Source of the DNA: Verrucomicrobiia bacterium
GTDB taxonomy: Bacteria > Verrucomicrobiota > Verrucomicrobiia > Limisphaerales > UBA11358
Length of the DNA stretch: 64,000 nucleotides
Direction: 5' to 3'
NCBI GenBank assembly: GCA_031290985.1
Contig: JARLJW010000111.1
Span: 116,104-180,103 of the forward strand
The notes beneath the pieces were generated by a model that was not told the origin of the DNA, searched no databases, and saw only the letters and a list, made by a program, of their open reading frames with translations. The position numbers were made by a program, and so were the translations under genes. Numbering within the stretch: the first letter of the stretch is position 1; each line of letters opens with the position of its first letter. Shown here one piece after another: positions 17,723-44,155 of the stretch.

Positions 17723-17740
17723 AAAGCTAAAATAAAACCC

Positions 17741-20007: not shown

Positions 20008-20099
20008 GGCGGTGCGATGGTGATTGTTTTCAGGTTTGTCCTCGATTGCAAATATTCTTTGCACGATTCTACTTTTGCACCAATTTTTCCGTATTAAAG

Positions 20100-24078: not shown

Positions 24079-24130
24079 TCGTTAATTTTCACTGGCACAT
24101 GAAAACTTCAAAGACCATTTTCCCGGGTTT

Positions 24131-24173
24131 CCAAGGGAAACGCCGCGCCCTTGCGAACGCAGCGTTTCCTTGG
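24131..24173. other. Stable hairpin downstream of the gene ending at 24194
   Basis: CCAAGGGAAACGC ... GCGTTTCCTTGG (12 pairs, one bulge); no U tract. Confidence 0.45.
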
Positions 24174-24193
24174 ATAAATCCGGCGCACCAAGT

Positions 24194-26764: not shown

Positions 26765-26920
26765 CGGTGACCTTGTTTGGGTTTTTGTCGGCGTCAAAAG
26801 CGTTTGTGCTCTGAATCCACAATCCTGTTCCCGACAATAATCCGGCCCGCGCCAACTCAAAGCCGAAAAATGTATCATTTGTTGAAGTTAGGTAACATTA
26901 ACTGGCAACCGTCTGGCCGG

Positions 26921-28237
26921 TTAATGTCCGCCCGCCGGGCGACTTAAACCCTTGGGAGGATGGAAAAAAAGGGCCAAAGCCACGGCTGCCACTAGGCCGC
27001 ATATCATTGGAACCAGAAACAGGCCTTGAAAATTTGTAACATCGCCATGCGTGAACACCTTCTGCCCGAGATACGGGCAGATGGAGTTCGCCAGCAGCGC
27101 GCCGAGGCCCAGGATCATCACGTTAAACAGGCCCTGCGCGCTGGCGCGGGCGTCCTTGGGGAAATAGGCGTCGGCAAAGATGTAGACCGTCGCGAAGAAG
27201 AACGCGTAGCAGATGCCGTGCAGGATCTGCACCGCGATGATGAGCCAGGGGTGCTGCGGAAAAAACGCGTACACGGCGAAGCGCGCCGCATGGCCGAGGA
27301 TGCCCACGATCATGGTCGTGCGCCAGCCGAGCCGCGCCAGCGTCGCGCCGAGGATGAACATCGTGGAGATCTCCGCGATCTGGCCCACGCTCATCACCGG
27401 CATGATCCAGTTGCCGGGGATGCCCACGCCGCCCGCCGCCGGGTCCGTCCCGAGAAAACTTCCCGTCCAGTTGAAATAACAGTTGTGCACGAAGGAATCC
27501 ACCAGCGTCACCAGCCACAGCACGAGGACGAACGGATGCTTCAACAATTTCAACGCCTCCAGCCACGCCAGCTTTTCCACCGCGCCTTCGCCGGACTTTT
27601 TCGGCGGGGTGTGCGGCAGCACAAAGCTGAACAGCGCCAGCAGCAACGAGGCGATCCCGGCCACGGCAAACGTCCACACCGTCGCGGCCTTCAGCTTCTC
27701 GCCCGTCAAGCCGGAGCCCAGCACCGTGCCCAGCCAGTCCACCAAGCCGTGCGGGTTGGCGGCATGAACCTTGTCCCAGTCCACCAGGATGAACGTGAAC
27801 GGCCACGCGGCGAGGATCCAGCCGATGGTCCCGCCCATGCGCACGAGGCCGAACTCCTTCTGCGAATCCTTCAGGTGCGCGAACGCGATGGAGTTCACGA
27901 TGGACATCGTGGGCACGAACAGCAGGCAATGCACCAGCATCAGGCCGAAGAAGGGCCAGAAGGTTTTCGTGAACACGAGCCCGAGCATCGCCACGCCGCC
28001 GATGAGATGGCTGAACGCCAGGAATTTTTCCGCCGCAAAATTACGGTCACAAAACTGGTTGCTGAAAAACATCCCCACGATGGCGGCGATGGGGAACGCG
28101 TTCAGGATCCACGCCTGTTCCCCCGGTGAAAAGCCGAGGCTCGGCAGATAGCCGAAGATGAGCGGCAACCAGGCGCCCCAGATGAAAAATTCCAGGGCCA
28201 TCATGACGAACAGTTTGAAGCGGATTGAAGAGTTCAT
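26921..28237 (-). CDS. MFS transporter, nucleoside:H+ symporter-like
   Basis: RFKLFVMMALEFFIWGAWLPLIFGYLPSLGFSPGEQAWILNAFPIAAIVGMFFSNQFCDRNFAAEKFLAFSHLIGG...; about 12 hydrophobic segments. Confidence 0.85.
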   Translation of the reverse strand: MNSSIRFKLFVMMALEFFIWGAWLPLIFGYLPSLGFSPGEQAWILNAFPIAAIVGMFFSNQFCDRNFAAEKFLAFSHLIGGVAMLGLVFTKTFWPFFGLMLVHCLLFVPTMSIVNSIAFAHLKDSQKEFGLVRMGGTIGWILAAWPFTFILVDWDKVHAANPHGLVDWLGTVLGSGLTGEKLKAATVWTFAVAGIASLLLALFSFVLPHTPPKKSGEGAVEKLAWLEALKLLKHPFVLVLWLVTLVDSFVHNCYFNWTGSFLGTDPAAGGVGIPGNWIMPVMSVGQIAEISTMFILGATLARLGWRTTMIVGILGHAARFAVYAFFPQHPWLIIAVQILHGICYAFFFATVYIFADAYFPKDARASAQGLFNVMILGLGALLANSICPYLGQKVFTHGDVTNFQGLFLVPMICGLVAAVALALFFHPPKGLSRPAGGH

Positions 28238-28357
28238 TGCGTATGGCTTAAGGCTGCCGGTTTTTCCGGCTTATTTCAAAATCAAACTGTGTTTAAAACG
28301 AAACGGCGGGGTTGAGGAAGCCGCCGCCTTTCATGCCGGTGTGGCCGGGCCACAGGT

Positions 28358-29371
28358 TCACAACGTCACCGGCCGGCCGCTGCGCACGGATTTTTCCTCC
28401 GCGCGCAATATCTCCAGCGTGGTCACGCTGTCGTGGGCGGTGACCACCGAGGGCTTTTCGCCGCGCGCCACGCAGTTGACGAAGTAGCGGATCTCCGCGC
28501 TGTAACCATCGGTGCCCGTGGGCTTGAGCATCCGCTGGGTCTTGCCCGGACGCGCGATCTGCAGCGTGCCCGCGCCGCGCGCGAGGTCAAAATCAATGGT
28601 CGCCTGCTCGCAATGCAGGGTGAACGCCATGTTAAAACCCTCCATGGGCAGCCAGCTCCCCTCGGCATGGACCACCGGGCCGTTCGCATAAACATACTGG
28701 GTGACGACGTGGTCGATGTCGCCGTGCGCATCGGTGATGCCGCTGGAAAAGACCTTTTGCGGCCGGCCGAACAGGAAATTCACAAAATCCGTGTCGTGGA
28801 TGTGCAAGTCGTACAGCGCGCCGCCCGCATGCACGCCCGCCTTGCTCCACGCCGGCCGGGCCGAGACGCGGCGGAAATTCGCCGCGAGCACGGTGCCGTA
28901 GGTCTTTTCGGAGACGATCTGCTTCATCTCCGCCCAGCCCGGCCAGAACCGCATGCACATCGCCGGCATCAGGAAATGGGGCGTGCCGTTCATGGCCGAC
29001 AACAGCTTCCGCACCTCCCCGGCATTTTGCGCGAGGGGTTTTTCGCACAGGACGTGCTTCTTCGCGCGCATGGCCTCCAAAACCTGGGCGGGATGCAGGG
29101 CGGTCGGCGTGCAGATGTCCACGAGGTCCACATTTGCATCCGCCAGCAGTTCGGAAAAATGGCGGTAGCTTTTGACCTCCGGGCTGAGCATGAGCGCGGA
29201 GGAGTCGCCCAGGTTGCCGTTTACGCCGCCGAGCAGGCCGTTGACCGGCGCGCGGGTATTGTCGCACACCGCCACGATGCGCACATTGCGCAGCCGCTGA
29301 TAGGCGCGCAGATGCGTGAGGCCCATGAAACCCAGGCCCGCAACCGCGACATTAATTTTTTTTGTTGCCAT
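28358..29371 (-). CDS. Gfo/Idh/MocA-family oxidoreductase (no signal peptide)
   Basis: MATKKINVAVAGLGFMGLTHLRAYQRLRNVRIVAVCD...AMRAKKHVLCEKPLAQNAGEV. The track ORF to 30004 is over-extended. Confidence 0.93.
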   Translation of the reverse strand: MATKKINVAVAGLGFMGLTHLRAYQRLRNVRIVAVCDNTRAPVNGLLGGVNGNLGDSSALMLSPEVKSYRHFSELLADANVDLVDICTPTALHPAQVLEAMRAKKHVLCEKPLAQNAGEVRKLLSAMNGTPHFLMPAMCMRFWPGWAEMKQIVSEKTYGTVLAANFRRVSARPAWSKAGVHAGGALYDLHIHDTDFVNFLFGRPQKVFSSGITDAHGDIDHVVTQYVYANGPVVHAEGSWLPMEGFNMAFTLHCEQATIDFDLARGAGTLQIARPGKTQRMLKPTGTDGYSAEIRYFVNCVARGEKPSVVTAHDSVTTLEILRAEEKSVRSGRPVTL

Positions 29372-29379
29372 GATCTCCC

Positions 29380-30216
29380 TCAAAATGAGACGCGCTCCAT
29401 CACCTCGCGCGCCGTGCGGATGTCCGCCACCCGGGTGTGACCGTATTCGCGCTCGATGACGAGGTTCACGTTGAACACGACGTGCTTGAACGTCGTGAAA
29501 AAGCCGCGCCAGTCCACCTCGCCCTTGCCGACGGGCACTTCCTCGCCCCAGGTGCCGGGCACGCGGGCGCGTTTCGCATCCTTGATGTGCACCTGGCGGA
29601 TCCACGGCGCGAGGATGTGCAGCGCCTTCACGGGATCGCCCTTGTCGTACAAGATCATGTTGGCGGGGTCGAAATTCACGCCGATGTTCGGGTGGTTCAG
29701 CTTGTGCAGCAGCACGGACAGTTCCGGCGCCGTCTCCTGCCCGGTCTCCAGGCCGAGCAAAATGTTTTGCACCATGAAGATGTCGGCCACCACGTCCAGC
29801 CGCTGACACATCTTCGCAAAGGTCGGGTGCGATTCGTCCGGCGGCAGGAAGCCCGCGTGAAAGGTCACCAGCTTCAGGCCCATTTTCTTGGCGATGGTGG
29901 CGCAGGCGCTGATGTTCTTGACGTTCTGGTCCCATTTCGCGTCCGGGGCGATGCCCCCGGTGATCCGGATGGATTCCAGCGTGGCGTAATCCTCGCCGAG
30001 GCACCGCACCATGCCGGACACGATGGTGATGTTGTGCTCGCGGAAGATTTTTTCCGTGTCGCCCCAGACCTTGGGCGAATCACGCAACGGATCCAGCTCC
30101 AGTTGCACCCGCGAGATGCCGGTGGCGCGGAGTTTCTGCACCAGGTCTTCCGGGCTGGTGGGCTGGAGCGACCAGCTGCAGACCGCGAGCCGGTCAAGGA
30201 TGGAGGGTGATTTCAT
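29380..30216 (-). CDS. Sugar phosphate isomerase/epimerase-like TIM-barrel protein
   Basis: LDRLAVCSWSLQPTSPEDLVQKLRATGISRVQLELDPL...LVTFHAGFLPPDES...HPNIGVNFDPANMILYDKGDPVKALHILAPWIRQVHIKDAKR. Confidence 0.9.
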   Translation of the reverse strand: MKSPSILDRLAVCSWSLQPTSPEDLVQKLRATGISRVQLELDPLRDSPKVWGDTEKIFREHNITIVSGMVRCLGEDYATLESIRITGGIAPDAKWDQNVKNISACATIAKKMGLKLVTFHAGFLPPDESHPTFAKMCQRLDVVADIFMVQNILLGLETGQETAPELSVLLHKLNHPNIGVNFDPANMILYDKGDPVKALHILAPWIRQVHIKDAKRARVPGTWGEEVPVGKGEVDWRGFFTTFKHVVFNVNLVIEREYGHTRVADIRTAREVMERVSF

Positions 30217-30326
30217 TTATGTTGCAATAATCGCCAGCCCTGCCGCTGGCCCCAGAATGTTCCTTTGCATGTCATCCTTAAAAATTATGGGGCCAATCTA
30301 CCCATGACACCCGGCAGCGCACAGAC

Positions 30327-30358
30327 CAAAGATGTTGCTTTTCTTGTAGATTTGTAAC
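30327..30358. promoter_or_regulatory. Shared upstream motif, site C
   Basis: CAAAGATGTTGCTTTTCTTGTAGATTTGTAAC; 27/32 matches to site A. Confidence 0.55.
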
Positions 30359-30359: not shown

Positions 30360-31412
30360 TCACCGCCGCCGCTGTTCCTGCGCCCGCGGCGACAGGAACG
30401 GGACGGATTTCCCCCGCCCCAGGATCTTTTGCGCGCCGCCGATCAGGCGTTCCCAGTCCATCGCCGGGCCCGGATCAGTTTTATTCGTCTGGATGTGGAA
30501 ATGCCCCAGGACGCCCTGATAATTTTTCAAATCGTCATCCGCCAGCTTGTGCGGAATCAACCGGCCCGCCGCGTCCACCGGGTACTGGCACTTTAATTTC
30601 GGAAAGATCCGGCACAGCGTCGCCGTCAGCTTCGTCAGCGCCGCATATTGCTCGGGCGTATAATCAAACTGCACGAGGTCTTTGCCTTGGATGACGCCGC
30701 GCACCAGTTCATTTCGCGCGGGATGGCCGGTGAAATTCTTCGTCCGGATGCCGCCATCGCCCAGGCGATGGGGGAGGATGTTGACCACTTTGCCGTTGGC
30801 ATTGGTCTGGTACCATTGCGCGAAGGGATTTTTTTCATCCACCCGGTACGCGCCGATGTTGGCGATCTCCACGCCGATGGAACGGTCGTTGGAAGTCGTC
30901 GCCTGCCAGGCCCGCTCCTTCAGGTCCAGCGTCTGGTAAATGGTCCCATCGAGGTCGCACATGAAATGGACGCTCAGATCGCGGTCATCCTGCAACACCA
31001 AAAAACACGTCCGGCTCACGCCGCAGTCGTCAAAATGCAGCACGAACTGGTCAATGACGCCCTGCAGCAGCGGCAGATCCCAGCCGCCGCCGCGCACGCG
31101 TTCGATTTGGTTGGTCGTCAGGCTTTTCTGGCGCAAGCTGAAGCGGTTCGGCGTCGTCAAGGTCTTGACCTCGGCCGTGGAGTTGGACCAGTCCGACCGG
31201 TCGATCGGGGCAAAGCGCCGTTCCACGCGGTAGGCGTCATAACCGCCGGGGTCCATCCACAACACCACGGGCGTGCCGGTGTGGAAAAACTGGCCGGCGG
31301 CGACGATTTCATCCCCGGTGCGGGGTTCGGGCGTGCCCGGGCGTTGCATCGTGCTGCAACCGCAGACGCACAAGGCGCCCAGCAGGCCGGCAAAAAATAA
31401 ATTCGTTTTCAT
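30360..31412 (-). CDS. N-acetylmuramoyl-L-alanine amidase-like lipoprotein (Amidase_2)
   Basis: Lipobox GALCVCGCSTMQ; FVLHFDDCGVSRTCFLVLQDDRDLSVHFMCDLDGTIYQTLDLKERAWQATTSNDRSIGVEIANIGAY...ILPHRLGDGGIRTKNFTGHPARNE. Confidence 0.8.
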   Translation of the reverse strand: MKTNLFFAGLLGALCVCGCSTMQRPGTPEPRTGDEIVAAGQFFHTGTPVVLWMDPGGYDAYRVERRFAPIDRSDWSNSTAEVKTLTTPNRFSLRQKSLTTNQIERVRGGGWDLPLLQGVIDQFVLHFDDCGVSRTCFLVLQDDRDLSVHFMCDLDGTIYQTLDLKERAWQATTSNDRSIGVEIANIGAYRVDEKNPFAQWYQTNANGKVVNILPHRLGDGGIRTKNFTGHPARNELVRGVIQGKDLVQFDYTPEQYAALTKLTATLCRIFPKLKCQYPVDAAGRLIPHKLADDDLKNYQGVLGHFHIQTNKTDPGPAMDWERLIGGAQKILGRGKSVPFLSPRAQEQRRR

Positions 31413-31413
31413 G

Positions 31414-32601
31414 TCATTTGATGTCGGTGAGCGGACGGTCAAAAACCCATTGCAGACCGCGCTGCAAGCGTTCGCGGACATGGTCGGCGTGATGTCCGGG
31501 CGGCTCGTAAAAAGTGCAGCGCGACGGACGGGACCGCAGCACCTCATAGATCTTCCGCGCGCCGATGTTGGCGGCGTACTCATCCTGGGCCGCGCCTTCG
31601 AGATAGATCAACTGCTGCGGGCTGAAAGCGTGTGGATTTTTCTTCACGATGGTCAGCGGGTCGTTGTCCAGCCAGCGTTGCCAGACGTCGGCGCGAAGAT
31701 TTCCTTTCGCATCGTAAAGCCACTCGAATTCGCCGCGATGCGGCCAGCCGCACGGAGCGTAGGCGCAGGACAGGCCCAGCGCATAATTGATGTCCCCGTC
31801 TTTCGGCACGGGCAATTCACCCCGGTCGATTTTCTTGGCGTCCGCGGGCGACAACCGGGCGACCGACGGCACTTTGACCAGCGGCAGATGGCTCGTCGGA
31901 AAATCCGAATCGGGACTCATGGCGATGACCGCGTCAAACAGCTTCTGCCGGTCGCTGCCCAGGCGCAACGCGCCAAACCCGCCGCTGGAATGCCCGCCGA
32001 TAAGGCGGCGCACGCCGGTGGCCGGGACGGGATGACGGGCTTCCACGGCGTGGACGATTTCGTCGCAGACAAAATCGGCGTAATTGCCCTGTGCGGGAGA
32101 ATTCAAAAACTGGCCGCCGCCCCAGCGCGTCCAACCGTCCGCAACCACCAAGATGACCGGCGTGCCGTCGTCCGCAATTTTCTGGGTGAACTTCAGCCAG
32201 ACATTGGAACTCGCCAGAATTTTGGCGGCGGAATTGCCGTAGCCGGGCAGATAATACAGCACGGGCAGCGGCAGGCCATTGGTTGCCTGCGCGGGGAGGA
32301 AGATGGGCACGGGGCGCGTGTCCGGGTCGTGCAGCGCATTATTTTTCAGCGCCGCGCTGTGCAGAGTAATGACCTCCAGTTGCGCGCCCGCGGCCGGCAG
32401 CGTTGCCGCGACAAGCAGGAGCAGCAGGAGTGCGGCCGTCCCCGGCCGCAGCCACGTCCGCAGGGCGCGCGGTGTGGGCAAGTTCAACGCGGCCTGGTTT
32501 GTGAAAGTTGCTGCGCCCGGGGACGGGCACACTCCATAAGCGGGGAGTTTAGAAACTAAAACCACAGGCTTAAATTTTTTGCCAGCCTGGTTTTTGTTCA
32601 T
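31414..32601 (-). CDS. Alpha/beta-hydrolase, esterase family (tributyrin/feruloyl esterase-like)
   Basis: LEVITLHSAALKNNALHDPDTRPVPIFLPAQATNGLPLPVLYYLPGYG...VRRLIGGHSSGGFGALRLG (GHSSGG nucleophile elbow). N-terminus overlaps a repeat element; start uncertain. Confidence 0.82.
   Translation of the reverse strand: MNKNQAGKKFKPVVLVSKLPAYGVCPSPGAATFTNQAALNLPTPRALRTWLRPGTAALLLLLLVAATLPAAGAQLEVITLHSAALKNNALHDPDTRPVPIFLPAQATNGLPLPVLYYLPGYGNSAAKILASSNVWLKFTQKIADDGTPVILVVADGWTRWGGGQFLNSPAQGNYADFVCDEIVHAVEARHPVPATGVRRLIGGHSSGGFGALRLGSDRQKLFDAVIAMSPDSDFPTSHLPLVKVPSVARLSPADAKKIDRGELPVPKDGDINYALGLSCAYAPCGWPHRGEFEWLYDAKGNLRADVWQRWLDNDPLTIVKKNPHAFSPQQLIYLEGAAQDEYAANIGARKIYEVLRSRPSRCTFYEPPGHHADHVRERLQRGLQWVFDRPLTDIK
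32427..32535. repeat. REPIN-like 109-bp inverted-repeat element, copy 1
   Basis: 29-bp arms GGAGTGCGGCCGTCCCCGGCCGCAGCCAC (32427-32455) and reverse complement of 32507-32535 GGAGTGTGCCCGTCCCCGGGCGCAGCAAC. Confidence 0.8.
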
Positions 32602-33340
32602 AAACCCAGCGGTAATAATCCTTCATCTTCAATTCCGCGGCGGCGGCCTCGTCCAGGAACACCGTGACCTTGGGATGCAGTTGCAGGGCGCTCGCGGGAT
32701 TCATCGCGGTGATGGGGCCTTCGACGGCCTCGGCGATGGCGCGCGCCTTCTTCTCCCCGAACGCCAGCAGCACGCAGTGTCGGGATTCCAGAATGGTCCC
32801 GATGCCCATGGTGATGACATGATGCGGCACCCCGGATTCATTGCCGAAGAACCGCGCATTGTCCCGCAAGGTCTGCGGCGTCAGCGTCTTGATCCGCGTC
32901 CGCGAGGCCAGCGAGGAGGTCGGCTCGTTGAAACCGATGTGGCCGGAGGTGCCGATGCCCAACAACTGCACATCGATGCCGCCGGCGGCGAAGATTTTGC
33001 GCTCATAATTTTCGCACGCGATGGGAATGTCCTTCGCCAGCCCGTCCGGGATGTTCACGCTCTTGATGGCGATGTTGACGTGGCTGAACAGATGTTCCCA
33101 CATGAAGCTGTGATACGACTGCGGATGCTGCGGCGAGAGGCCGACATATTCATCGAGGTTGAAGGTGGTGAGCTTGCTCCAGTCGAGCTTCATCGAAACA
33201 AGCTGGCGGTACAGGGCTTCCATCGTGCCGCCGGTGGCGAGGCCGAGCACGGAGGCGGGTTTTTCGCGGATGAGCCTGGCCAGCAATCGCGCGGCGATGT
33301 TCGTCGCGGCATCCGGCGTGGGTTGGATGATGATTTCCAT
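32570..33340 (-). CDS. nagB: Glucosamine-6-phosphate deaminase
   Basis: LGLATGGTMEALYRQLV, LTTFNLDEYVGLSPQHPQSYHSFMWEHLFSHVNI, LLGIGTSGHIGFNEPTSSLASRTRIKTLT, LQLHPKVTVFLDE. Confidence 0.93.
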   Translation of the reverse strand: MEIIIQPTPDAATNIAARLLARLIREKPASVLGLATGGTMEALYRQLVSMKLDWSKLTTFNLDEYVGLSPQHPQSYHSFMWEHLFSHVNIAIKSVNIPDGLAKDIPIACENYERKIFAAGGIDVQLLGIGTSGHIGFNEPTSSLASRTRIKTLTPQTLRDNARFFGNESGVPHHVITMGIGTILESRHCVLLAFGEKKARAIAEAVEGPITAMNPASALQLHPKVTVFLDEAAAAELKMKDYYRWVYEQKPGWQKI

Positions 33341-33343
33341 GGT

Positions 33344-34201
33344 TCAAGTGGTTCCGAGTCGTTTGCTGAGCTTGGCCTTCACCTCGTTGCGCAATTCATC
33401 AACGAAGCTCAAGGTGTAGTCCGCGATGTCCAGCGCGGGATTCTGCACCAGCGGCGTCAGGTCCATGCCGAAAATGACCTGCGTGGCCTCGTCGGTCGCG
33501 TGGGAATCAAAGAACGTGGCATGGGCGGAGCGGCGGCCGAGCGTGGCGAGGTCGTAGCGTTTGCCGCCGGCGATCTGCGAATCGAACATGCCGTTCAATT
33601 TCGCCGCCAGCTTGTCGCTGCCGCTCACATCCATGACCACTTTTTTGGCGTCCGGCAGCCAGTCGAGATCGCGCCAGACTTCGCAGCCGATCACTTTGGC
33701 CGGACGTTTGGACCTGGGCAGTTCGCGCATCGCCTGGATGGCCGCGACGACCACGCCGATGTGCGTATCGTGTTTGTCGGCCAAATTGTGCGTGTATACC
33801 ACCGACACTTTGGCCGCATTGAAAATTGCCTTGAGATCTTCCTTTAAGGACGGGTCGGTGGCGCTTTTCACGGCGCTGCTGGAATAATCGAGCTGGAGCA
33901 TCGCGCCATAGCCGCCGAGCTTGGCGGCCTGGTTCTGCTCGCGCCGGCGCACGGCCATCATCTCTTCGTCGGTGAATTTTTTATATTTGCCGGTGCGCGC
34001 GCTGCCCGCGCCGTTGGTGCAGGTGACGCCGCCGAACCATTTGGTTTTGCTGGCCCGGCATTCGAGAATGCCCTGGAGGGCCATGAACTCAAGGTCGTCC
34101 TGATGCGCGCCGATGCCGAGATGGGTGAGCCGCTTAAGCGCAGCGACCACCGGTTTGCCGTCGGGTATGTAAACCGCCGCCGTGGGATGGTGTAACTTCA
34201 T
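33344..34201 (-). CDS. PIG-L/LmbE-family deacetylase
   Basis: THLGIGAHQDDLEFMALQGILEC (AHxDD), MMAVRRREQNQAAKLGGYGAMLQLDY, VVYTHNLADKHDTHIGVVVAAIQAM. Confidence 0.85.
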   Translation of the reverse strand: MKLHHPTAAVYIPDGKPVVAALKRLTHLGIGAHQDDLEFMALQGILECRASKTKWFGGVTCTNGAGSARTGKYKKFTDEEMMAVRRREQNQAAKLGGYGAMLQLDYSSSAVKSATDPSLKEDLKAIFNAAKVSVVYTHNLADKHDTHIGVVVAAIQAMRELPRSKRPAKVIGCEVWRDLDWLPDAKKVVMDVSGSDKLAAKLNGMFDSQIAGGKRYDLATLGRRSAHATFFDSHATDEATQVIFGMDLTPLVQNPALDIADYTLSFVDELRNEVKAKLSKRLGTT

Positions 34202-34205
34202 AAAT

Positions 34206-35588
34206 TTATTTTTTCAAGGCCGGCAGGCTCGCCGCCGCCACCGCCTGGCCGACCCGGCGCGATTTTTCATCGGGCACGCGGATCTCGATCTTGCGGGCGA
34301 CCTCCGGGAAATTTTTCTTCAGGACTTCCCGCGCCCGGGCGATGACAATATCCCCGCCCTTGCCGGTCGTGACGCGGCCAAGAATGAGCGCCTGCTCATA
34401 ATCGTAAAACTCGGTGTACTGCGCGAGCGCGCAGCCGAGGTAGGTGCCGATGGTCTCGTAGATTTTTGCCGCGCGCGCATCGCCCTTGGCCATGAGGCCT
34501 TGGACTTCCTTGAGCCGTTCGGGCAGGCCCAGTTTTTCCGGCAGGTAAATTTTCGCGGCGGGCAGCAGCTTGTTCACGGCCTGCTGCGAGAAATACATCA
34601 CGCCGGTGCCCTTGTCCTTGGACCATTCGTCCTCGGCGGCTTCCGGCTGGAAATCAACGGGCACAAAGGCGAGTTCGTTCAGCCAGCCGGGAATCCGGCC
34701 GTGGCGGTCCATGAAACCCGCCGCCTGGCTGGAGCCCATGGCGATGCCCAGCATCCCGCGGCTGCCAAGCGAAAGCGCGCCGGCCAGCGCGGTCACATCG
34801 CCGTCGTTCATCACCTGCACGGGCACGTTCCATTCTTTTTGAATGCGTTTGAAGACCTTGGCGGCTTTCGCAAAATCTTTCTTCGGGATCGCGCGCAGCA
34901 ATGACGCGACGCGGATCTCGTTGTCCACGATGATCCCGGCCGAACTGCCGCCGATGGCGTCCACGCGCGGCAGATAGGCGGCGGCGCGATGCAGGCCCGA
35001 CACGATGTGGTGATAATGATATTCAGGGTTCGACTGCGTCTTCGGATCCCACGGCACCTCGTCGGTGTATACCGCCTTCCCGTCGATGACGGCGGAAAAT
35101 TTATAATCACTCGCGCCAAGGTCGAAGCCGATGCGGCAGCCCTTGAGATGTCCGCCGGCGGCGGTCTTGGCCTCCTTCGCCGCAGGAACTTTTTCCGCCG
35201 TGGTCACGACAACCTCAAACGTCTTCGCGTAGGCCGACGTCATCATGTCGAAATCAAACTTCCGCGCGCCCCGCGGGGAATACGCCTTGCGGATGGCTTC
35301 GCCGATGGCCGTTGGTCCGCCCAGGTAGAGTTTGCCGCCGCCCCACGCCCACAGGAGAAATTTCACCAGGCGTTCGACGTAAAGCAGCGTGGTGGCATCC
35401 GCGTCCGGCAGCACGATCGTTTCGTAGCGCGAGAGCAATTTGTTCTCGCGCTCCAGGCCGATGACCAGCGGCACCGCGCGGCCGGATTTTTTCGCGGCGG
35501 CGACGTAGTTGCGGTTGAACAGCACCGTCGGCTGGAAGGTGGGATCCAGAGGGGCGGGGAAAATGGAGGAGGACAGGTTCATAATCAT
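34206..35588 (-). CDS. ROK-family sugar kinase-like protein with N-terminal extension
   Basis: GCRIGFDLGASDYKFSAVIDGK; DAIGGSSAGIIVDNEIR; VQVMNDGDVTALAGALSLG; start overlaps the upstream GH20 stop (ATGA). Confidence 0.78.
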   Translation of the reverse strand: MIMNLSSSIFPAPLDPTFQPTVLFNRNYVAAAKKSGRAVPLVIGLERENKLLSRYETIVLPDADATTLLYVERLVKFLLWAWGGGKLYLGGPTAIGEAIRKAYSPRGARKFDFDMMTSAYAKTFEVVVTTAEKVPAAKEAKTAAGGHLKGCRIGFDLGASDYKFSAVIDGKAVYTDEVPWDPKTQSNPEYHYHHIVSGLHRAAAYLPRVDAIGGSSAGIIVDNEIRVASLLRAIPKKDFAKAAKVFKRIQKEWNVPVQVMNDGDVTALAGALSLGSRGMLGIAMGSSQAAGFMDRHGRIPGWLNELAFVPVDFQPEAAEDEWSKDKGTGVMYFSQQAVNKLLPAAKIYLPEKLGLPERLKEVQGLMAKGDARAAKIYETIGTYLGCALAQYTEFYDYEQALILGRVTTGKGGDIVIARAREVLKKNFPEVARKIEIRVPDEKSRRVGQAVAAASLPALKK

Positions 35589-37219
35589 TCAGCTTTGGAG
35601 AGCGGGCGGTAATTCATGCCCATGGCGTCGAGACGCTTTTCGTTCAACGCGGTGCGGGCCTGGAAGCTTTCCCAGTCGCGGGATTCCTTCGGCGACCAGT
35701 CGGCCTCGGCGAGCGCGCCGAGCCGCGGGAACATCATGTATTCGACGTAGCGGAGATTGGGGATGTATTCCGTCCAGAGGTTCGCCTGGCCGCCGAGGAT
35801 GCGCGGGCTGAATTCCGGGGCGAGCTTTTCGGGCATCGGGTCGAATTCATAAACTTTTTTCAAGGGCAGGAAGCCGCCGATGGCCTTGGGCTCAATCGCG
35901 TGGTTGGTGGACTGGTAATGATCGAAGTAGCAGTATTTCGTGGGGGTCATCACGACGTCATGACCGCTGGCCGCGGATTCGGCGCCGCCGCCGATCCAGT
36001 CCATCAACCCGGCGCTCGGCGTCAGGCCGCCCTCGCGGATTTCGCTCCAGCCGATGATGCTTTTGCCGTTGGTGTTGACGATGGCTTCAATCCGGGCGGT
36101 GAAATAACTTTGCAATTCCTTTTCGTCTTTCAGCCCTTTGGCTTTCATAAAGGCCTGGCAGGCGGCGGAGTTTTGCCACGTTTTCTTCGGCACCTCGTCG
36201 CCCCCGACATGGATGAATTTGCCGGGAAACAATCCGGCCACCTCATGCAGGATGTCGGCGAGAAAGACATACGTCGCCTCATCGCTCACATTATAGATTC
36301 CGTCGTAAACTCCGCCGTCATGGTCGGCATCAAACGGTCCGCCGGTGCAACTGAATTGCGGATAGGCCGTCAGCGCGGCCATCGCGTGCCCGGGCATTTC
36401 GATCTCAGGCACGATCGTGATATGTCGCGCCGCGGCGTAGGCGATCACTTCGCGGATTTGTTTCTGGGTGTAAAAACCGCCGTAACGGCCATCAGGACCG
36501 TAGGCGGTTGTGGACTGTGGATCCAGCTTGAAGCCAACGCCTTTGCGCCAGGCGGCGACGGAGGTGAGCTTGGGATATTTTTTGATTTCAATCCGCCAGC
36601 CCTGGTCATCCGTGAGATGCCAGTGGAAGGTGTTCAATTTATACATCGCCATCAGATCCAGCACCTGCTCCACCTCGGGGACGGTGTAAAAATGGCGGCA
36701 AACATCGAGCATGAAGCCGCGCCAGACGAAGCGCGGAGAATCAGTGATTTTCACGCACTGCGCCGTCCAGAACTGATGTTTGACCTTGGTCGCCGAAAAA
36801 ATTTCCGGCGGCAGCAGTTGGAGCAGCGTTTGTGAGCCGTAGAACAGGCCGGTGGGCGTGGCCGCAGTGATGCCGACATAATTGATGTTCACGTAAAGCT
36901 GATAGCCTTCCGGGCCGAGCTTCTCCTGCAGGTTGGTGTCCAGCAGGAACGCGATTTCACTTTTGGCCGGGCGCGTGGCGGCGGGCGAGACCGGGAGCGG
37001 GTAGCCGGTGGATTGGCGCAGGGTCGCGGCCAGCAATCTGGCCTCGGCCGCGCCGCCGGCAAAGGTGATTTTGGTCCCGGGCTGGATCTCAAATTCGCCC
37101 GGCAAATTCGTCATGGTCTGCGGCTGGGGAATGAGGGAGACAATGCCGGCGGCCTGCAACCAAGTGCAGGTCGCGACGATGAGTGCGGTGCCAAAGATTT
37201 TTTTCATGTAATTTTTCAT
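35585..37219 (-). CDS. Secreted beta-N-acetylhexosaminidase, GH20
   Basis: SLIPQPQTMTNLPGEFEIQPGTKI; WRGFMLDVCRHFYTVPEVEQVLDLMAMYKLNTFHWHLTDDQGWRIEIKKYPKLT; IVPEIEMPGHAMAAL; FIHVGGDEVPKKTW. Confidence 0.95.
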   Translation of the reverse strand: MKNYMKKIFGTALIVATCTWLQAAGIVSLIPQPQTMTNLPGEFEIQPGTKITFAGGAAEARLLAATLRQSTGYPLPVSPAATRPAKSEIAFLLDTNLQEKLGPEGYQLYVNINYVGITAATPTGLFYGSQTLLQLLPPEIFSATKVKHQFWTAQCVKITDSPRFVWRGFMLDVCRHFYTVPEVEQVLDLMAMYKLNTFHWHLTDDQGWRIEIKKYPKLTSVAAWRKGVGFKLDPQSTTAYGPDGRYGGFYTQKQIREVIAYAAARHITIVPEIEMPGHAMAALTAYPQFSCTGGPFDADHDGGVYDGIYNVSDEATYVFLADILHEVAGLFPGKFIHVGGDEVPKKTWQNSAACQAFMKAKGLKDEKELQSYFTARIEAIVNTNGKSIIGWSEIREGGLTPSAGLMDWIGGGAESAASGHDVVMTPTKYCYFDHYQSTNHAIEPKAIGGFLPLKKVYEFDPMPEKLAPEFSPRILGGQANLWTEYIPNLRYVEYMMFPRLGALAEADWSPKESRDWESFQARTALNEKRLDAMGMNYRPLSKAE

Positions 37220-37224
37220 CAATA

Positions 37225-39045
37225 TCAATGTCTGCCTTCGAAATGTTCTTCGATCTCTTCCAGGGTCTTGCCCTTCGTCTCCGGCAGGAAGAACGTGGCG
37301 GTGACGAAATAGACCACGGTGCAGCCGGCGAAGATGAAAAACATGGTGGAGTAGCCATATTGGCCGACGGTCGGCAGGAACATGGCGGCGATGGTGGTGG
37401 AGATGGCGATGTTGACGAGCAGCGCGAAGCTCATGCCATTGGAGCGGATGCGCGTGGGCATCAATTCGGACAGCGCGAGCCAGACGCATACGCCCGGCCC
37501 GATGGCGAACGAAGCCATGAAGCAATAGATCAAGATCGCGGTGAGCCAGCCGTTGCTGGTGGAGGGAACGGGCGTTAGGATGGCGTTCTCAATCTTGAGC
37601 AGCGCCGTGCGGGATTTCTCCAGGTCGGCGAACGGATTTTTAAAGAAGGCGGCCACCTTGGTCGCCGGCAGGCAGCCATCGCGGTCGATGGTGATGGTCG
37701 CGCCCGGCTCGTCGGAGCGGACGACCTTGGAGGCGGCGCGGAAATCGCCGTAGGAGTATATCACGATCAACGTCTTCGGCTGGGCGGCCGGCTTGGACGG
37801 CTCCGCTGATTTGTTTTGATTCGGCAGGAGCCAGCCGAGCGTCACATCATTAAACTCCACGACCGCCGTTTGATTTGAGGCAACGACCATGGTTTGCACG
37901 ACGTCCTTCACATCCACCCGCCGCGATTCGGTCTGCTTGAAAACCAGGCCGGCGGCGAGCAGCGAGACGATGACGCCGGCGCTGCCGAGCGAGAGGAGAA
38001 ATTTCCGGCCCTTGCGGTCCACCAGCGCGATGGCCCCGATGGTCATGAGGAAATTTACGACGGTGAGGACCACGTAGCCGAGATGCGCCTCCTTGTCGCT
38101 CAGGCCGGCCTGGATGAGGATGGTGGCGTTATAGCCGATGATGGAATTGACGCCGGTGGCCTGGTTGCAGGCGAGAATGATGCAGGCAAGCACGAACGGC
38201 AGGATGTATTTCCGCTGCCAGAGCGACTCGGAATGTTTCCCGGCGGCATTGGTGCCGGCTTTTTCGGCGGCGGCGATCTCCGCCATCTCGCGCAGTTCGA
38301 TCTCCGCCTGGTTTTCCGAACGGGAACGCAGCAGCGCGGCGCGGGCGGCGTCTTTCCGGCCTTTACGGAACAGCCAGCGCGGCGATTCCGCCACCAGGAA
38401 TGAACCGATGACAAACAAAAGTCCCGGCGGCAGCGACACCCAGAAGATTCCGCGCCAGGCGGCGTCCTTGAAGGCAAAAAGCTTTTGCGCGTCGCCGAGT
38501 TTGGCGACTTCATCCACGCGTCCGCTCCAATAATATCCGATCACCGCCGCCGCGACGATGCCGAGCGTCAACAGCCACTGAAAAACGCCGGTGCCCTTGC
38601 CACGCGACGCGGCGGACAGACATTCGACCAGATAGAGCGGGATGATGATCCCGATGAGCCCGCCGCTGATGCCCTGCAACACTCGCCCAAAAATCAATCC
38701 ACCGTAGCTGTGCGACAACGCGATGGCCGGGACGCTGACGACAAATAATATGCCGCTGAAAATCATCATCTTCTTGCGTCCAAGCAGATCGGCGAGCAGG
38801 CCGGCGAACAGCGTGGAGAAAACGCCGCCGAGCAGCACGGCGGCGACGAGGAAGGAAAGCTGGTTGGCGGTGAGGGGCGCGTTCGTGGCGGCGTCCTTGA
38901 AGGTAGCCTCGAGATACGGCAAGGCGCCGGAAATGATCCCCACGTCAATGCCGAAGAGCAGGCCGCCAAGGCCGGCGACAAGCAGCAGGAACCGGTTGTA
39001 CCCGGATTTGGCGGAGGCGCCGGGATCAGTTGGTGCAGGATTCAT
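37225..39045 (-). CDS. Sugar-porter-family MFS transporter with a large inserted loop
   Basis: LLLVAGLGGLLFGIDVGIISGALPYLE; LADLLGRKKMMIFSG; GRVLQGISGGLIGIIIPLYLVECLSAASRG; AESPRWLFRKGRK; NQATGVNSIIGYNATILIQAG; FLPETKGKTLEEIEEHF. Confidence 0.95.
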   Translation of the reverse strand: MNPAPTDPGASAKSGYNRFLLLVAGLGGLLFGIDVGIISGALPYLEATFKDAATNAPLTANQLSFLVAAVLLGGVFSTLFAGLLADLLGRKKMMIFSGILFVVSVPAIALSHSYGGLIFGRVLQGISGGLIGIIIPLYLVECLSAASRGKGTGVFQWLLTLGIVAAAVIGYYWSGRVDEVAKLGDAQKLFAFKDAAWRGIFWVSLPPGLLFVIGSFLVAESPRWLFRKGRKDAARAALLRSRSENQAEIELREMAEIAAAEKAGTNAAGKHSESLWQRKYILPFVLACIILACNQATGVNSIIGYNATILIQAGLSDKEAHLGYVVLTVVNFLMTIGAIALVDRKGRKFLLSLGSAGVIVSLLAAGLVFKQTESRRVDVKDVVQTMVVASNQTAVVEFNDVTLGWLLPNQNKSAEPSKPAAQPKTLIVIYSYGDFRAASKVVRSDEPGATITIDRDGCLPATKVAAFFKNPFADLEKSRTALLKIENAILTPVPSTSNGWLTAILIYCFMASFAIGPGVCVWLALSELMPTRIRSNGMSFALLVNIAISTTIAAMFLPTVGQYGYSTMFFIFAGCTVVYFVTATFFLPETKGKTLEEIEEHFEGRH

Positions 39046-39172
39046 TTTGTGATTTCGTAACAACGATTTTTTAAGCGACCCGGCCAAGCCCCGCCCGCCG
39101 TGCGGGCGCTGCCGCACCCGTGTTCCCAAGCTTTGGCGGGGAAAGCTTTACCCGTTCCGGGCCGGGAAAAAA

Positions 39173-39207
39173 GCCAAAAGTTGTCGCTTTTGTTTTGTTT
39201 TTGTAAC
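39173..39207. promoter_or_regulatory. Shared upstream motif, site B
   Basis: GCCAAAAGTTGTCGCTTTTGTTTTGTTTTTGTAAC between divergent araC-family and MFS genes. Confidence 0.6.
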
Positions 39208-39227
39208 AAGTAGATTTTGGGGCAGAA

Positions 39228-40115
39228 ATGAGTCTGCCGACCCATCCCGACTGGTGGCCCGCCCGCCAGCTGCAACGCAGCCCGGTCAAGAAGGTGCTGG
39301 TGTGCGGCCGCCGCCTGAACCCGCCGCTGTTCAGCCATGTCGTCAACTTCCCGCGCCTGGAGATCCCGCTGCACGGCCAGTATCGCAACCAGATGGAGTC
39401 CGGCGGGGCGATCGCGCACATGGTGCTGCGGCCCGGCATGGCGCTGTTTGCGGCGCCCAACTGCTGGAACCTGCCGGAGTGGCAGCCGGGTCTGGAATTG
39501 TTAAGCATCTTTTTTGGCAAATCACAACTGGGCGTCAGCCTGGTCTCCGCCCGGTCTAAAAATTATCCGCAGCTCGCGGCGAAAAAATATTCCGTCCCCC
39601 GCCCCATCGGCGGGCCGGTGCCGCACCTGCTGAACGCGCTGGACGAGCTGCTCACGGAGGACGAGCCCGGGCCCGCGCTCACCGACCTGGTCTGCGCCCT
39701 CATCCACTGCGTGGAAAACCTGCTGCGCCAGCCGGCCGCCCAGCCGGGCAGCCGCGCCCAGTCGCTGCTCGAGGATGTCCGCGTCTTTCTGCAAAGCCAT
39801 TATCAATACGAGATCACCCGCGATTCCGTGGCGGAACAGTTCAACGTCACGCCCAACCATCTCTCGCGGCTGTTCCAGACGCACGGCCGCACGACGTTCA
39901 GCGGCTACCTCACCCAGGTTCGCATCGACCGCGCGAAGCATCTGCTGCACAATTACAATCTCAAGCTCGACGACATCGCCGCGCGCTGCGGCTACCACGA
40001 CACGCCCTACTTCTGTCACGTGTTCAAAAAAATGACCAAGGCCACGCCGATGCAATTCCGGCTCAAAATCCGCCGCACGAGCCAGGCGCTCACCACGCCC
40101 CTGCCGGCGGGCTAA
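39228..40115 (+). CDS. AraC-family transcriptional regulator
   Basis: C-terminal VRVFLQSHYQYEITRDSVAEQFNVTPNHLSRLFQTHGRTTFSGYLTQVRIDRAKHLLHNYNLKLDDIAARCGYHDTPYFCHVFKKMTKATPMQFR. Confidence 0.95.
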   Translation: MSLPTHPDWWPARQLQRSPVKKVLVCGRRLNPPLFSHVVNFPRLEIPLHGQYRNQMESGGAIAHMVLRPGMALFAAPNCWNLPEWQPGLELLSIFFGKSQLGVSLVSARSKNYPQLAAKKYSVPRPIGGPVPHLLNALDELLTEDEPGPALTDLVCALIHCVENLLRQPAAQPGSRAQSLLEDVRVFLQSHYQYEITRDSVAEQFNVTPNHLSRLFQTHGRTTFSGYLTQVRIDRAKHLLHNYNLKLDDIAARCGYHDTPYFCHVFKKMTKATPMQFRLKIRRTSQALTTPLPAG

Positions 40116-40153
40116 CCGGCGTGGCAACATCCGCGTAACGCCCGTTCAATTCC

Positions 40154-40201
40154 GTCGCCTGACGCTGCGTCCGGCGACGGGGACACCGCAGCGCGGTGTC
40201 C
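40154..40201. repeat. Tandem hairpins between convergent genes
   Basis: GTCGCC-T-GACGC-T-GCGTC-C-GGCGAC (40154-40178) and GGACACCGC-AGC-GCGGTGTCC (40181-40201, 9-bp perfect stem). Confidence 0.7.
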
Positions 40202-40211
40202 GCCACCACGA

Positions 40212-42593
40212 TCAAGGACCCACGCGCGCGCGGAAAAATTCCTGGGGCGCATTGGTAAATGGTCCGGCGGTGAAATTGAACACGCCGCCCGCGCTGGTCA
40301 GGTTGGTGAGACTGCTCCAGCTCATCAAATTCGTCGAGGTTTCAATCGTATAAGGCCAATACGCGTCGCCGGTAAAGCCAATCTGCACCACGCCGCCGGC
40401 GACGCTGATGGCCGAGAATTGCGCGGCGGACGGCGGGGCGAGCGCGAGCAGCGCGTTGGTGCTGGCGACCGCGCCGGCGATGTTCGTGGCCAGGACGGAA
40501 TAATTACCCGTGTTCGTGGCGGCGACAAACGCGAGCGGGTAGCTGGCATTGGTCGCCCCGGGGAGGTTCGTGCCATTGAACCGCCATTGATAGGCGGGCA
40601 ACGGCAGACCGGTGGCGGCGGCGGTGAAGGTGAGGTTCGTCCCCCATTTCACCGTTTGCGCAAACGGCTGCAACGTGAAGGCCGGCGCGACGGCGGGCGA
40701 TTCCACGCGGACATTGTCCACGAGGCCGAAATTGATGACGTTGTTCGAGGAGAGCGACGAGAACGGGTCCCAAAAGCCCACGAACACATTGTTCGCCGTG
40801 AACGTGGCGTTGGAAATCGTGGCGAAGCGGATGCCATCCACCACCCAGTCCACCGTGCTGCCGCGCTTGGAGACGATGACATCGTGCCACGCGAGGCCGA
40901 AGGTGCCGGGATCAAGCGCATTGGTCTGCTGCGGATAGGTTGACCGCTGGAGCGCCGGCGCGCTGCGGGCGTTGGGGATGGCGCTTTGATAATAAATATT
41001 GTCGGCGCCGCGCGCGGTCGCGTCTGCACCGGCATAATAATCCTGGGAGGCGCTGCCTTGCACCGTTGTGCCGGAGAAGACGCAAAAGTCATTCAGCCCG
41101 GTGCTCCCGGGCGAAATGCCCCCGTCGCCGTCGCACGCGAAATAAAACCCGTCGGCGGCGGAACCGGCGCCGTTCCATTCGGTGGTCGTGCCGGAAGTGC
41201 CGACGCCCCCGGTAAGAAACAAGGTCGAGCCGATCCCGCCGTTCGGAAAGGGGCCGTTGACGTTGATCCACGCGTCAAAATGCAGGCGGTAGTCGCCGGC
41301 AAAAACCTGGTTCGTGGGTGAAAGGGAAAGCGCGGCAACCGCACCGTTGGCGAGATTGGCCTTCAGTTGCAGTCCGCGCGTCGTCGCGTTCGTCGAGTTC
41401 GGGGCGGACGGGATGCCCAGCGTCGAGTAATCAAAATTGAACGTCGCGGCCGTGTCGCTGGAACTCCGGTGGAGCGTCCAGTTCGTGGCGGTGTCCACGT
41501 CAAAGTTATCGGCAAAGATCGTCGTCTGCAGCGGATACACGAGCAGCGAGACGACGCTGCTGGTGAGGCTGCCGGCGAAATTGGTCACGATGACCGCGTA
41601 GTTTCCGGCGCTGGCCGCCTGCGCGTTCGAGATGATGAGCGTGGTGTTCGTTGCGCCCGCGAGGCTGGTGCCGTTAAACGTCCATTGATATTTGAGCGGC
41701 AGGCTCCCGTCGGCCTTCGCCGAGAAGCTGGCGTTGCGGCCCGCGTCCACCGCGCGGCTGTTGACCAGCGGCGTCGTGAAGAACGGCGGGAAGAGCGAGC
41801 CGATCACAAGATTGGAAATCGTCTCCGACGTGCCGTTGAAAACATCCGTGTCCCAGCCGTGGATCGGGCCGGAAACGGTGTTGCTGTCGGTATATTGCCA
41901 GACGCTCCAATCGGGCCAGGGGCCGTTGCCGCTGGGCGCGCCGGTCTGCGGATTGGGGCTGGCCGGCCAGTTGGCCATCCATAACGGCCAGTTCGTGACG
42001 GTGGAATTAAACCAGGATCCGGAATAGGAGATGCCCGTGTAGATCACCGGCTTCACGGCGACGCCGTTGGAGGCGGCGGCATTGACGATGTCCTGGCACC
42101 AGCGGTTGGCCCATTGCGAAAGCGTGTTCTTGGTGTAGACCGGGCTGGCGGTGCCGGGGTCGGTCTCCATGTCCAGCATCGGCAGCAGATAGGCGCCGCC
42201 ATTGGTGATATACTTGCCCGCAATGCTCCAAAAATGCGCCGCCTCGGAGTCCGCACCCGCGAGCCCCAGATGCGTTTCCGGATGCGCAAAATGATACGCG
42301 CCGATCAGCACGCCGGCGGCCTTGGCATTCACCGCATTGATGGCAAAATCCGCATCATTGACCGTCAGACCTTCCGTGGCCTTCGCCCAGGCGAACGTGA
42401 TCCCGTCGGTGCTTTTCACGCTGGACCAGTTGATGCTGCCGCCTTGGTAATCCGAAACATCCACGCCCAACGGCCGCTGGCCAAAGGCCGGGGCCACACC
42501 CAATGTGAGAATGGCGGACGCCAAAAAAAGTCCAGCCCAACGGGCAAAACCGAAAACATTTCCCGGGGTTGAAAATTCTGGCGCAACGGACAT
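40212..42593 (-). CDS. Secreted GH25 lysozyme with Ig-like domains and a LamG-like middle region
   Basis: LGVDVSDYQGGSINWSSVKSTDGITFAWAKATEGLTVNDADFAINAVNAKAAGVLIGAYHFAHPETH...YLLPMLDMETDPG...KPVIYTGISYSGSWF...WSVWQYTD; Ig-like LKYQWTFNGTSLAGATNTTLIISNAQAASAGNYAVIVTN. Confidence 0.92.
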   Translation of the reverse strand: MSVAPEFSTPGNVFGFARWAGLFLASAILTLGVAPAFGQRPLGVDVSDYQGGSINWSSVKSTDGITFAWAKATEGLTVNDADFAINAVNAKAAGVLIGAYHFAHPETHLGLAGADSEAAHFWSIAGKYITNGGAYLLPMLDMETDPGTASPVYTKNTLSQWANRWCQDIVNAAASNGVAVKPVIYTGISYSGSWFNSTVTNWPLWMANWPASPNPQTGAPSGNGPWPDWSVWQYTDSNTVSGPIHGWDTDVFNGTSETISNLVIGSLFPPFFTTPLVNSRAVDAGRNASFSAKADGSLPLKYQWTFNGTSLAGATNTTLIISNAQAASAGNYAVIVTNFAGSLTSSVVSLLVYPLQTTIFADNFDVDTATNWTLHRSSSDTAATFNFDYSTLGIPSAPNSTNATTRGLQLKANLANGAVAALSLSPTNQVFAGDYRLHFDAWINVNGPFPNGGIGSTLFLTGGVGTSGTTTEWNGAGSAADGFYFACDGDGGISPGSTGLNDFCVFSGTTVQGSASQDYYAGADATARGADNIYYQSAIPNARSAPALQRSTYPQQTNALDPGTFGLAWHDVIVSKRGSTVDWVVDGIRFATISNATFTANNVFVGFWDPFSSLSSNNVINFGLVDNVRVESPAVAPAFTLQPFAQTVKWGTNLTFTAAATGLPLPAYQWRFNGTNLPGATNASYPLAFVAATNTGNYSVLATNIAGAVASTNALLALAPPSAAQFSAISVAGGVVQIGFTGDAYWPYTIETSTNLMSWSSLTNLTSAGGVFNFTAGPFTNAPQEFFRARVGP

Positions 42594-42633
42594 GAGGGAT
42601 TAATGCTGGATGTATGGTTTAATTAAAAGATCC

Positions 42634-42742
42634 GGAGCGCGGCCGGCCCCGGCCGCGGCAACACCCAAAAGGCAGGGAGTCCCCGTGAAAATCCCGCGCC
42701 AGCGCCGGCACCGGCGGCGGCGACCGGGGACGGGCGCACTCC
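42634..42742. repeat. REPIN-like 109-bp inverted-repeat element, copy 2
   Basis: 29-bp arms GGAGCGCGGCCGGCCCCGGCCGCGGCAAC (42634-42662) and reverse complement of 42714-42742 GGAGTGCGCCCGTCCCCGGTCGCCGCCGC. Confidence 0.7.
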
Positions 42743-42787
42743 GTTAGCAGGGGTTTTGGTGTTTAAAAACATGCACCGGTTAATTTA

Positions 42788-43873
42788 TCACATCGGCAGA
42801 CCGTGCGCCTCGGCAACCGCCTTGTAAGTGATCTTGCCGTCGCGGATGTTGATGCCGCCGATGAGCGCGGGAAATTTTGCGCAGGCCTCATCCACCCCAT
42901 GATCGGCGAGCATTTCGAGGTAGCGGTAGGTGACGTTGGTCAAGGCCTGCGTGGCCGTGCGCGCATACGCGCCGGGCATGTTGGCCACGCAATAATGCGT
43001 CACGCCTTCCTCCACATACACGGGATTATGATGCGTGGTGGCGCGGGAAGTTTCCGCGCAGCCGCCCTGGTCGATGGCGATGTCCACCAGCACGCTGCCC
43101 CGCCGCATCCGGCGCAGCATCTCGCGGGAAATCAGTTTTGGCGCCTTCGCCCCCGGCACCAGCACGGCCCCGATGAGCAAATCCACCGTGGGGAGCAGGT
43201 CGGACAAATGCGCTTCGCTGGAAAACAGCGTGTGCGCCGTGTGCAGGGTGATGTCGAGAAAGCGCATGCGTTCCAAATCGACCTCCAGAATGGTCACGTC
43301 CGCGCCCAAGCCCTGGGCCATGCGGGCGGCGTTCACGCCCGCCGCACCGCCGCCGAGGACGACCACCTTGCCGGGCAACACGCCCGGCACGCCGCCCAGC
43401 AACGTGCCGCTGCCGCCGAAATGTTTCGCGAGAAAATAGCCGCCCACGAGCACGCTCATGCGCCCGGCGATCTCGCTCATGGGCTCCAGCAACGGCAGGC
43501 GGCGGTTCACCTCGATGGTTTCATACGCAATGCACGTCGCGCCGGATTTCAGGAGGGCGTCCGTGAGCGGCTTGCTCGCCGCGAGATGCAGGTAGGTGAA
43601 GAGGATCTGGCCCGGCCGCAGCAGGGGCAGTTCGGTGGACAGCGGCTCCTTGACCTTGATGATGAGATCCGCCTTCGCGAAAACCTCCTCATGCGTCCCC
43701 ACCAATTTTGCGCCGGCGGCCTGATATTCGGCGTCGGGATAGCCCGCGCCGACGCCCGCGCCGGTTTCGACGAGGACCACATGGCCGCGCTTGATGAGTT
43801 GATACGCGCCGCTGGGCAGCAATGCGACACGGTATTCCTGTTCCTTGATTTCTTTCGGTACGCCAATGATCAT
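42788..43873 (-). CDS. ald: Alanine dehydrogenase
   Basis: [136 protein letters not shown]. Confidence 0.97.
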
Positions 43874-44155
43874 AAATAAAAAAAGTACGTTCCGCCTTGC
43901 AGCGGGTTGATAATTTCCTGGCACGCTTCCTTTTACTCGTGCCTTGTCGCCACGCTATCACAGCCACGGCGGGTGTCAACCCAAGTGCGGCAGGAAAAAT
44001 GAAATGCCGAACGCCGAATGACGAATGGCAGGGAAGCAGAGGGCGGAGAAACGAACAAATTTGATTGCCATCCCCACGCCCCTTGCGCCCGGCGGATTTC
44101 CCCAACTCCCCGCTTGAGCTTCCCTTTAATTCGCCGACTGTTATTGTGAACTCAG

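Follow-up and report, generated by a model that had tools for sequence, protein, structure and literature searches.

In Escherichia coli, the AraC protein combines a cupin-like domain with a double helix-turn-helix (HTH) and, at araI1-I2 (pBAD), recognizes direct-repeat half-sites about two helical turns apart, the downstream one lying next to the −35 element, with the regulator gene divergent from the operon. A second AraC-family regulator of E. coli, ChbR, controls chitooligosaccharide use and thus belongs to amino-sugar catabolism. The locus studied here lies in a window of 64,000 nucleotides from a Verrucomicrobiia bacterium of the order Limisphaerales, and it resembles the arabinose system in several respects: a predicted cupin-like domain joined to a double HTH, a direct repeat with copies about two helical turns apart, a half-site by the −35 element, and a divergently transcribed regulator gene. 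It differs from that system in that the repeat has a 20-bp spacing (21 bp for AraC), the half-site sequence is another one, and other genes would be controlled. With ChbR, it shares the AraC family and the presence of amino-sugar genes, whereas the genes themselves are different and the protein reaches only 33.9 bits against the ChbR equivalog PRK10296 (NCBIfam; cut-off, 264); against the arabinose AraC equivalog PRK10572 (NCBIfam), it scores 57.3 bits, below the cut-off of 208.

AggR, a member of the AraC/XylS family, acts from a site 21 to 22 bp upstream of the −10 element that overlaps the −35 element (PMC6392122). The present motif is likewise a single site whose distance to the −10 element downstream of it is fixed and which overlaps or abuts the −35 element as in AggR (PMC6392122), and we infer that the gap is here also 21 bp if the second half-site is counted to offset 36. 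Unlike AggR, which works at fimbrial promoters with one site each, the regulator of this locus would meet a motif with two half-sites in front of sugar-catabolic genes. Within the Verrucomicrobiota, the alginate gene cluster of Verruconatronum alginivorum encodes a pulG-like pseudopilin, a pseudopilin was among the proteins raised on alginate (one replicate per treatment), and the genome has 67 pseudopilin homologs (PMC13274419). That cluster and ours have in common the phylum and a pseudopilin placed among glycan genes, but the V. alginivorum cluster serves another substrate, belongs to another order, and has no AraC operator described for it (PMC13274419). The GlcNAc pathway, as defined in one earlier study, was absent from the single verrucomicrobial genome analysed there (PMC5583593), and our literature search found no description of an AraC/GlcNAc regulon in Limisphaerales or Verrucomicrobia. 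The regulon proposed here would be a new one of a known kind.

Candidate operator sites and their presumed promoters

An initial annotation of the window had proposed that one motif is shared by three promoter regions, and we find all three copies where it had placed them, with core sites at 20103-20133, 30328-30358, and 39177-39207 (plus strand as matched). A strict pattern, AAAGNTGTNGCTTTTNTTNTNNNTTTGTAAC, derived from these three sites alone with no training on relatives, has three matches in the window when up to three mismatches are allowed and exactly three in the whole 5.98-Mb assembly, every one of them inside the window. Genome-wide matches could, as the annotation had allowed, have been no commoner than chance; since shuffling predicts 0.00 matches for the window and the reversed assembly contains 0, a chance origin of the motif is rejected. 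A fuller, 38-nt pattern yields four sites in the assembly (control, 0), adding 26860-26897, and the same fourth site (26866-26896) was picked up by a profile built from relatives; these genome-wide counts come from pattern matching only, so that weak sites may be missed.

The presumed target promoter lies on the minus strand at all four sites. Candidate operator A (core, 20103-20133; 58.9 bits) is situated between the divergent genes for a pseudopilin (19153-20007, minus strand) and a GH20-like lipoprotein (20194-21240, plus strand), 95 bp from the minus-strand ATG at 20007. Site B (39177-39207; 57.8 bits) separates the araC gene (plus strand), whose ATG is 20 bp away, from the MFS-GH20-ROK-PIG-L-NagB-esterase-amidase operon (minus strand), which starts at 39045, 131 bp from the site. 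Site C (30328-30358; 52.3 bits) follows directly behind the amidase stop codon, 111 bp from the minus-strand start at 30216, and is upstream of genes for a TIM-barrel protein, a Gfo/Idh protein, and a nucleoside-symporter-like MFS protein. Site D (26866-26896; 46.6 bits) precedes the run of Ig/DUF5018, Golvesin, and second pseudopilin genes, with about 122 bp to the likely ATG at 26743. The earlier placement of sites relative to genes was right, its distances of 94, 111, and 128 bp becoming 95, 111, and 131 bp when measured, and Pfam bears out its gene map around sites A, B, and C.

The target-strand consensus of 53 non-redundant sites is TGTTACAAAwnYaCAAnAAAwGCnACAwCTTTtnnCTTt, and the motif contains an internal direct repeat TTGTnRC whose copies are 20 bp apart (TTGTnGC and TTGTAAC in the window). 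Self-similarity of the motif has a single sharp peak of 0.113 at a shift of 20 bp, with shifts of 19 and 21 below zero; the 12-bp direct repeat that had been read as tandem half-sites does not hold up, with a self-similarity of 0.020 at shift 12 versus 0.113 at shift 20. Beyond the motif, at a fixed distance, a −35-like CTTT occupies offsets 34 to 37, and a TAnnnT follows, with its first base at offset 58 in 18 of the 54 sites and somewhere from 56 to 60 in 25 of them; equally wide control windows give 0 to 5 of 54. On both sides of motif plus promoter, the information content is near zero. Taken together, CTTT and TAnnnT with their 17-bp spacer form a predicted σ70-type promoter, with the candidate site directly upstream of its −35 element. 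At the left edge of the motif, a conserved AAG (39171-39173 for site B) probably represents the target promoter's −35 box read on the opposite strand. Both hallmarks of an AraC-type class II site, a direct repeat (the 20-bp peak) and fixed abutment to the −35 element (T at offset 35 in 53/53 sites), are thus found.

For site B, the presumed target promoter (39145-39172, minus strand; −35 TTTTTT at 39167-39172, −10 TAAAGC at 39145-39150) is placed from the position common to the 54 sites. Its counterparts, also on the minus strand, are 30295-30323 for site C (−35 TGTGCG at 30318-30323, −10 TAGATT at 30295-30300), 26834-26861 for site D (−35 TTTGAG at 26856-26861, −10 TATTGT at 26834-26839), and 20066-20098 for site A (−35-like TTTAAT at 20093-20098, −10 TAGAAT at 20066-20071). 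The promoters at B, C, and D fit the register, those at B and D with the −10 element one base nearer. Two features count against the model, namely, the −10 element of site A, which lies 4 bp further out than the norm, and the weak −35 element of site C. At 19 sites a gene starts on one side only, and in 17 of these it is the target side (p = 7e-4); another 34 sites lie between divergent genes, where the target side is presumed.

The motif is very likely the operator of the adjacent AraC-family protein encoded at 39228, and its geometry makes class II activation combined with autoregulation likely. A dimer would place its two subunits on the two direct-repeat half-sites, which on the target strand read GTTACAAA and GCnACAwC and are 20 bp apart. 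Once bound, the dimer would span roughly positions −71 to −41 relative to the start site, its edge meeting the −35 box of a promoter that points away from the dimer, and a sugar ligand in the putative cupin-like N-terminal domain would lead to RNA polymerase recruitment. Because the site between araC and the operon overlaps the only room for an araC promoter, the AraC protein probably limits its own synthesis. We hold the whole model, comprising the operator of the 39228 protein, class II activation, and a local regulon, with considerable confidence.

The geometry also bears on a variant in which the motif is an AraC operator but the protein is mainly a repressor, or acts both ways, and the sugar releases it. 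The site does abut the araC start, most ortholog start codons being 10 to 20 bp past the motif, so that a bound protein would cover the araC promoter, and at the 34 divergent sites both neighbours start. A repressor, however, would sit on or after the promoter and have no need for a fixed orientation, and the fixed place immediately upstream of the −35 and −10 elements on the target side, the weak −35 elements, and the 17:2 orientation bias all fit activation better, which leaves a predominantly repressing role improbable.

Co-occurrence of motif and regulator across the Limisphaerales

The candidate regulator (39228-40115, plus strand; 295 aa) has a putatively cupin-like N-terminal half and the C-terminal double HTH by which AraC/XylS family members are recognized, with Pfam matches to HTH_18 (76.9 bits) and HTH_AraC (45.5 bits), both above cut-off. 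A structure model from 20 orthologs (mean pLDDT, 80) has a beta barrel at residues 43 to 123 followed by two HTH units. Its HTH part resembles 6swi and 3lsg (TMt, 0.82 to 0.89), and the PDB matches are AraC-family proteins; the N-terminal half, a predicted beta barrel, has no Pfam match, and the full-length Foldseek matches have a high rmsd.

Tested with the window-derived pattern only, the motif occurs in 15 of 293 Limisphaerales genomes, and all 15 encode an AraC-family ortholog of the 39228 protein. A full-length ortholog is present in 17 of the 293 genomes, 15 of which carry the strict pattern, and the pattern is absent from all 275 sampled genomes without an ortholog (one further genome has an ortholog fragment). 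The Fisher p value of this association (2.5e-23) overstates its certainty, since the orthologs are related and the genomes are not independent. Two of the 15 pattern-bearing genomes come from other families of the order, and in the two ortholog-bearing exceptions, G107 and G175, the profile detected diverged sites (44.9 and 40.5 bits). In the genus of the window itself, the strict pattern is found in 14 of 49 genomes and a strong AraC ortholog in the same 14 plus one more; in this extra congener, G015, a site was found by the profile (48.2 bits). In G038 (L086, G038:C120), which has no motif, the regulator is represented only by an open frame of 163 residues that matches its C-terminal part, possibly a decaying copy or an assembly edge.

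Applied to 674 kb of fetched loci, the profile, trained on 43 different sites of relatives, gave 60 matches scoring 14 bits or more, whereas no match in the reversed sequence reached 8 bits. Every AraC ortholog whose upstream region was included in the fetched sequence (22/22, 19 genomes) has a site directly in front of it, and the orientation never varies; the motif is thus conserved at orthologous promoters, a point on which the initial annotation had let its proposal stand or fall. Around 13 pseudopilin loci (46 to 62% identical) from genomes without the regulator, the best score anywhere in 4 to 7 kb is 1.6 bits, and in one such motif-free control locus the Gfo/Idh (87%) and TIM-barrel (76%) neighbours are retained. 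With 0/13 regulator-free pseudopilin loci carrying the motif, the idea that it belongs to the pseudopilin genes is rejected; the motif follows the regulator, not the pseudopilin.

This tracking of araC holds in every genome, including contigs on which araC is the sole shared neighbour, and extends to two other families of the order. It therefore argues against the view that the motif is recognized by something else, either an alternative sigma factor using it as a promoter or a different regulator of the cluster, such as the hybrid two-component protein at 44255, even though the element is long, AT-rich, and upstream of genes and its forward reading resembles TTGTnG-N17-TAACAA. No pattern-bearing genome (0/15) has the motif without an AraC ortholog, a separate −35/−10 pair lies downstream of the motif, and direct repeats whose copies are separated by about two helical turns are characteristic of the AraC family, so we regard an origin in another factor as very unlikely. 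Several similar copies in one 20-kb stretch might suggest a short repeat, mobile or homogenised, or residual similarity between duplicated intergenic segments, but this is scarcely credible: information content flanking motif and promoter is near zero, the copies hold a fixed orientation relative to genes, and elsewhere in the genome there are none. Shared descent of the intergenic DNA is rejected as a sufficient explanation as well, there being no conservation outside motif and promoter.

In a tree of 21 orthologs of the regulator, the window type falls inside a well supported clade of 11 (100/99) with amino-sugar genes, and regulators adjoining PTS, GH38, GH76, and GH92 genes branch outside this clade. 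A nearly identical motif is used by all of these related regulators, so the specificity for DNA probably arose before the substrate changed.

Related AraC regulators with a near-identical operator were seen in G048 (L083), G019 (L063, L064), G023 (L065), G043 (L078), G175 (L110), G017 (L084), and G107 (L109), where the neighbouring genes encode a fructose-type PTS (EIIC, EIIB, and an HPr-EI-EIIA fusion) or GH38/GH76/GH92/GH125 alpha-mannosidases. One of these genomes, G048, holds both PTS-type and alpha-mannosidase-type regulators with sites, so that cross talk or insulation between paralogs is possible. Many sites are present in G098, a genome of another family (L102:6170, L106:10431, L105:7228 and 7374), among them one in opposite orientation before an L-Ala-D/L-Glu-epimerase-like gene; the same genome has a divergent site pair between a PTS gene and an MFS gene. 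In G044 C53 (L079) and G019 C1 (L063), a single stop codon falls inside the regulator match of the whole-genome search and a shorter open frame covers most of it, which points to a question of start codon or sequencing more than to a clear pseudogene.

Candidate target genes and possible substrate

The largest set of genes is that behind site B (30360-39045, minus strand), which encodes a sugar-porter MFS protein, a GH20 protein, a ROK-like protein, a PIG-L deacetylase, NagB (358 bits, above the cut-off of 326), an esterase, and an Amidase_2 lipoprotein that carries a lipobox. Behind site C (26921-30216, minus strand) are genes for a TIM-barrel protein (AP_endonuc_2), a Gfo/Idh protein, and an MFS protein (Nuc_H_symport), and behind site D (21248-26743, minus strand) are those for an Ig/DUF5018 protein, a Golvesin-domain protein, and a second pseudopilin (DUF1559). 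Site A is followed (15432-20007, minus strand) by genes for a pseudopilin (N_methyl; H-X9-DG), a Gfo/Idh protein, a TIM-barrel protein, and a DUF5009 protein, the GH20-like lipoprotein gene being on its other side. These four sites would define one local regulon for taking up and degrading an amino-sugar polymer or muropeptides, which would also take in the two pseudopilins and the secreted Ig- and Golvesin-domain proteins.

Across genomes, the genes on the target side include those for pseudopilins (12), fructose-type PTS EIIC (7), TIM-barrel proteins (7), sugar-porter MFS proteins (6), HGSNAT-like membrane proteins (5), Ig/DUF5018 proteins (3), GH20 proteins or relatives (2), and NagB (2). 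Sites in relatives also precede genes for an LD-carboxypeptidase, an operon with alanine racemase, HGSNAT-like proteins, and an L-Ala-D/L-Glu-epimerase-like enolase that scores below its equivalog cut-off. This gene content favours peptide-bearing amino sugars (muropeptides) over chitin by itself, and because of it we guess, at about an even chance, that the inducer is an amino sugar or muropeptide. Of the GlcNAc/glycan uptake proposed in the initial annotation, the glycan link stands, and induction may be due to muropeptides or further amino sugars rather than to GlcNAc or chitin alone.

The surroundings of the cluster (31000-43900) contain, besides the Amidase_2 lipoprotein gene, genes for a GH25-Ig protein (40212-42593) and an alanine dehydrogenase (42788-43873), which together suggest peptidoglycan use. 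No operator site was found near the GH25-Ig or the alanine dehydrogenase gene.

Pseudopilins in the proposed regulon

The protein encoded at 19153 has both the N-terminal methylation motif (N_methyl, 37 bits; cut-off, 21.2) and the H-X9-DG motif (model TIGR04294, 26.8 bits; cut-off, 19) that define the H-X9-DG prepilin family; its predicted structure, at a pLDDT of 36, is unusable. A pseudopilin is a predicted regulon target in 12 genomes, and the link that had been drawn from an operator of the adjacent AraC protein to both glycan catabolism and a pseudopilin is supported by this count together with the 15 of 17 versus 0 genomes carrying the pattern and the sites upstream of 22/22 orthologs. 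The genome of the window has 108 N_methyl matches, and two pseudopilins lie behind the four regulon sites (15432-20007 and 21248-21979). Considered together, the alginate-cluster pseudopilin of V. alginivorum and the present regulon raise the possibility that pseudopilins are governed by sugar-specific switches as a general feature of the phylum. We speculate further, and with considerable doubt, that Verrucomicrobiota pseudopilins could be substrate-dedicated parts of glycan uptake, one for each catabolic regulon and under the same switch. If this were true, the 108 N_methyl matches would represent substrate-specific capture or secretion tips rather than parts of a pilus.

For an uncultured lineage, sequence alone here gives a candidate regulator, an operator, a promoter spacing, and a gene list. 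The same motif at the alpha-mannoside and PTS genes of related regulators makes it usable for regulon prediction across the order. The regulon would place pseudopilins under a sugar-catabolic switch and so offers a handle on the function of these abundant pilus-like proteins; two of about a hundred become assignable to one substrate class, which makes the reason for their abundance testable.
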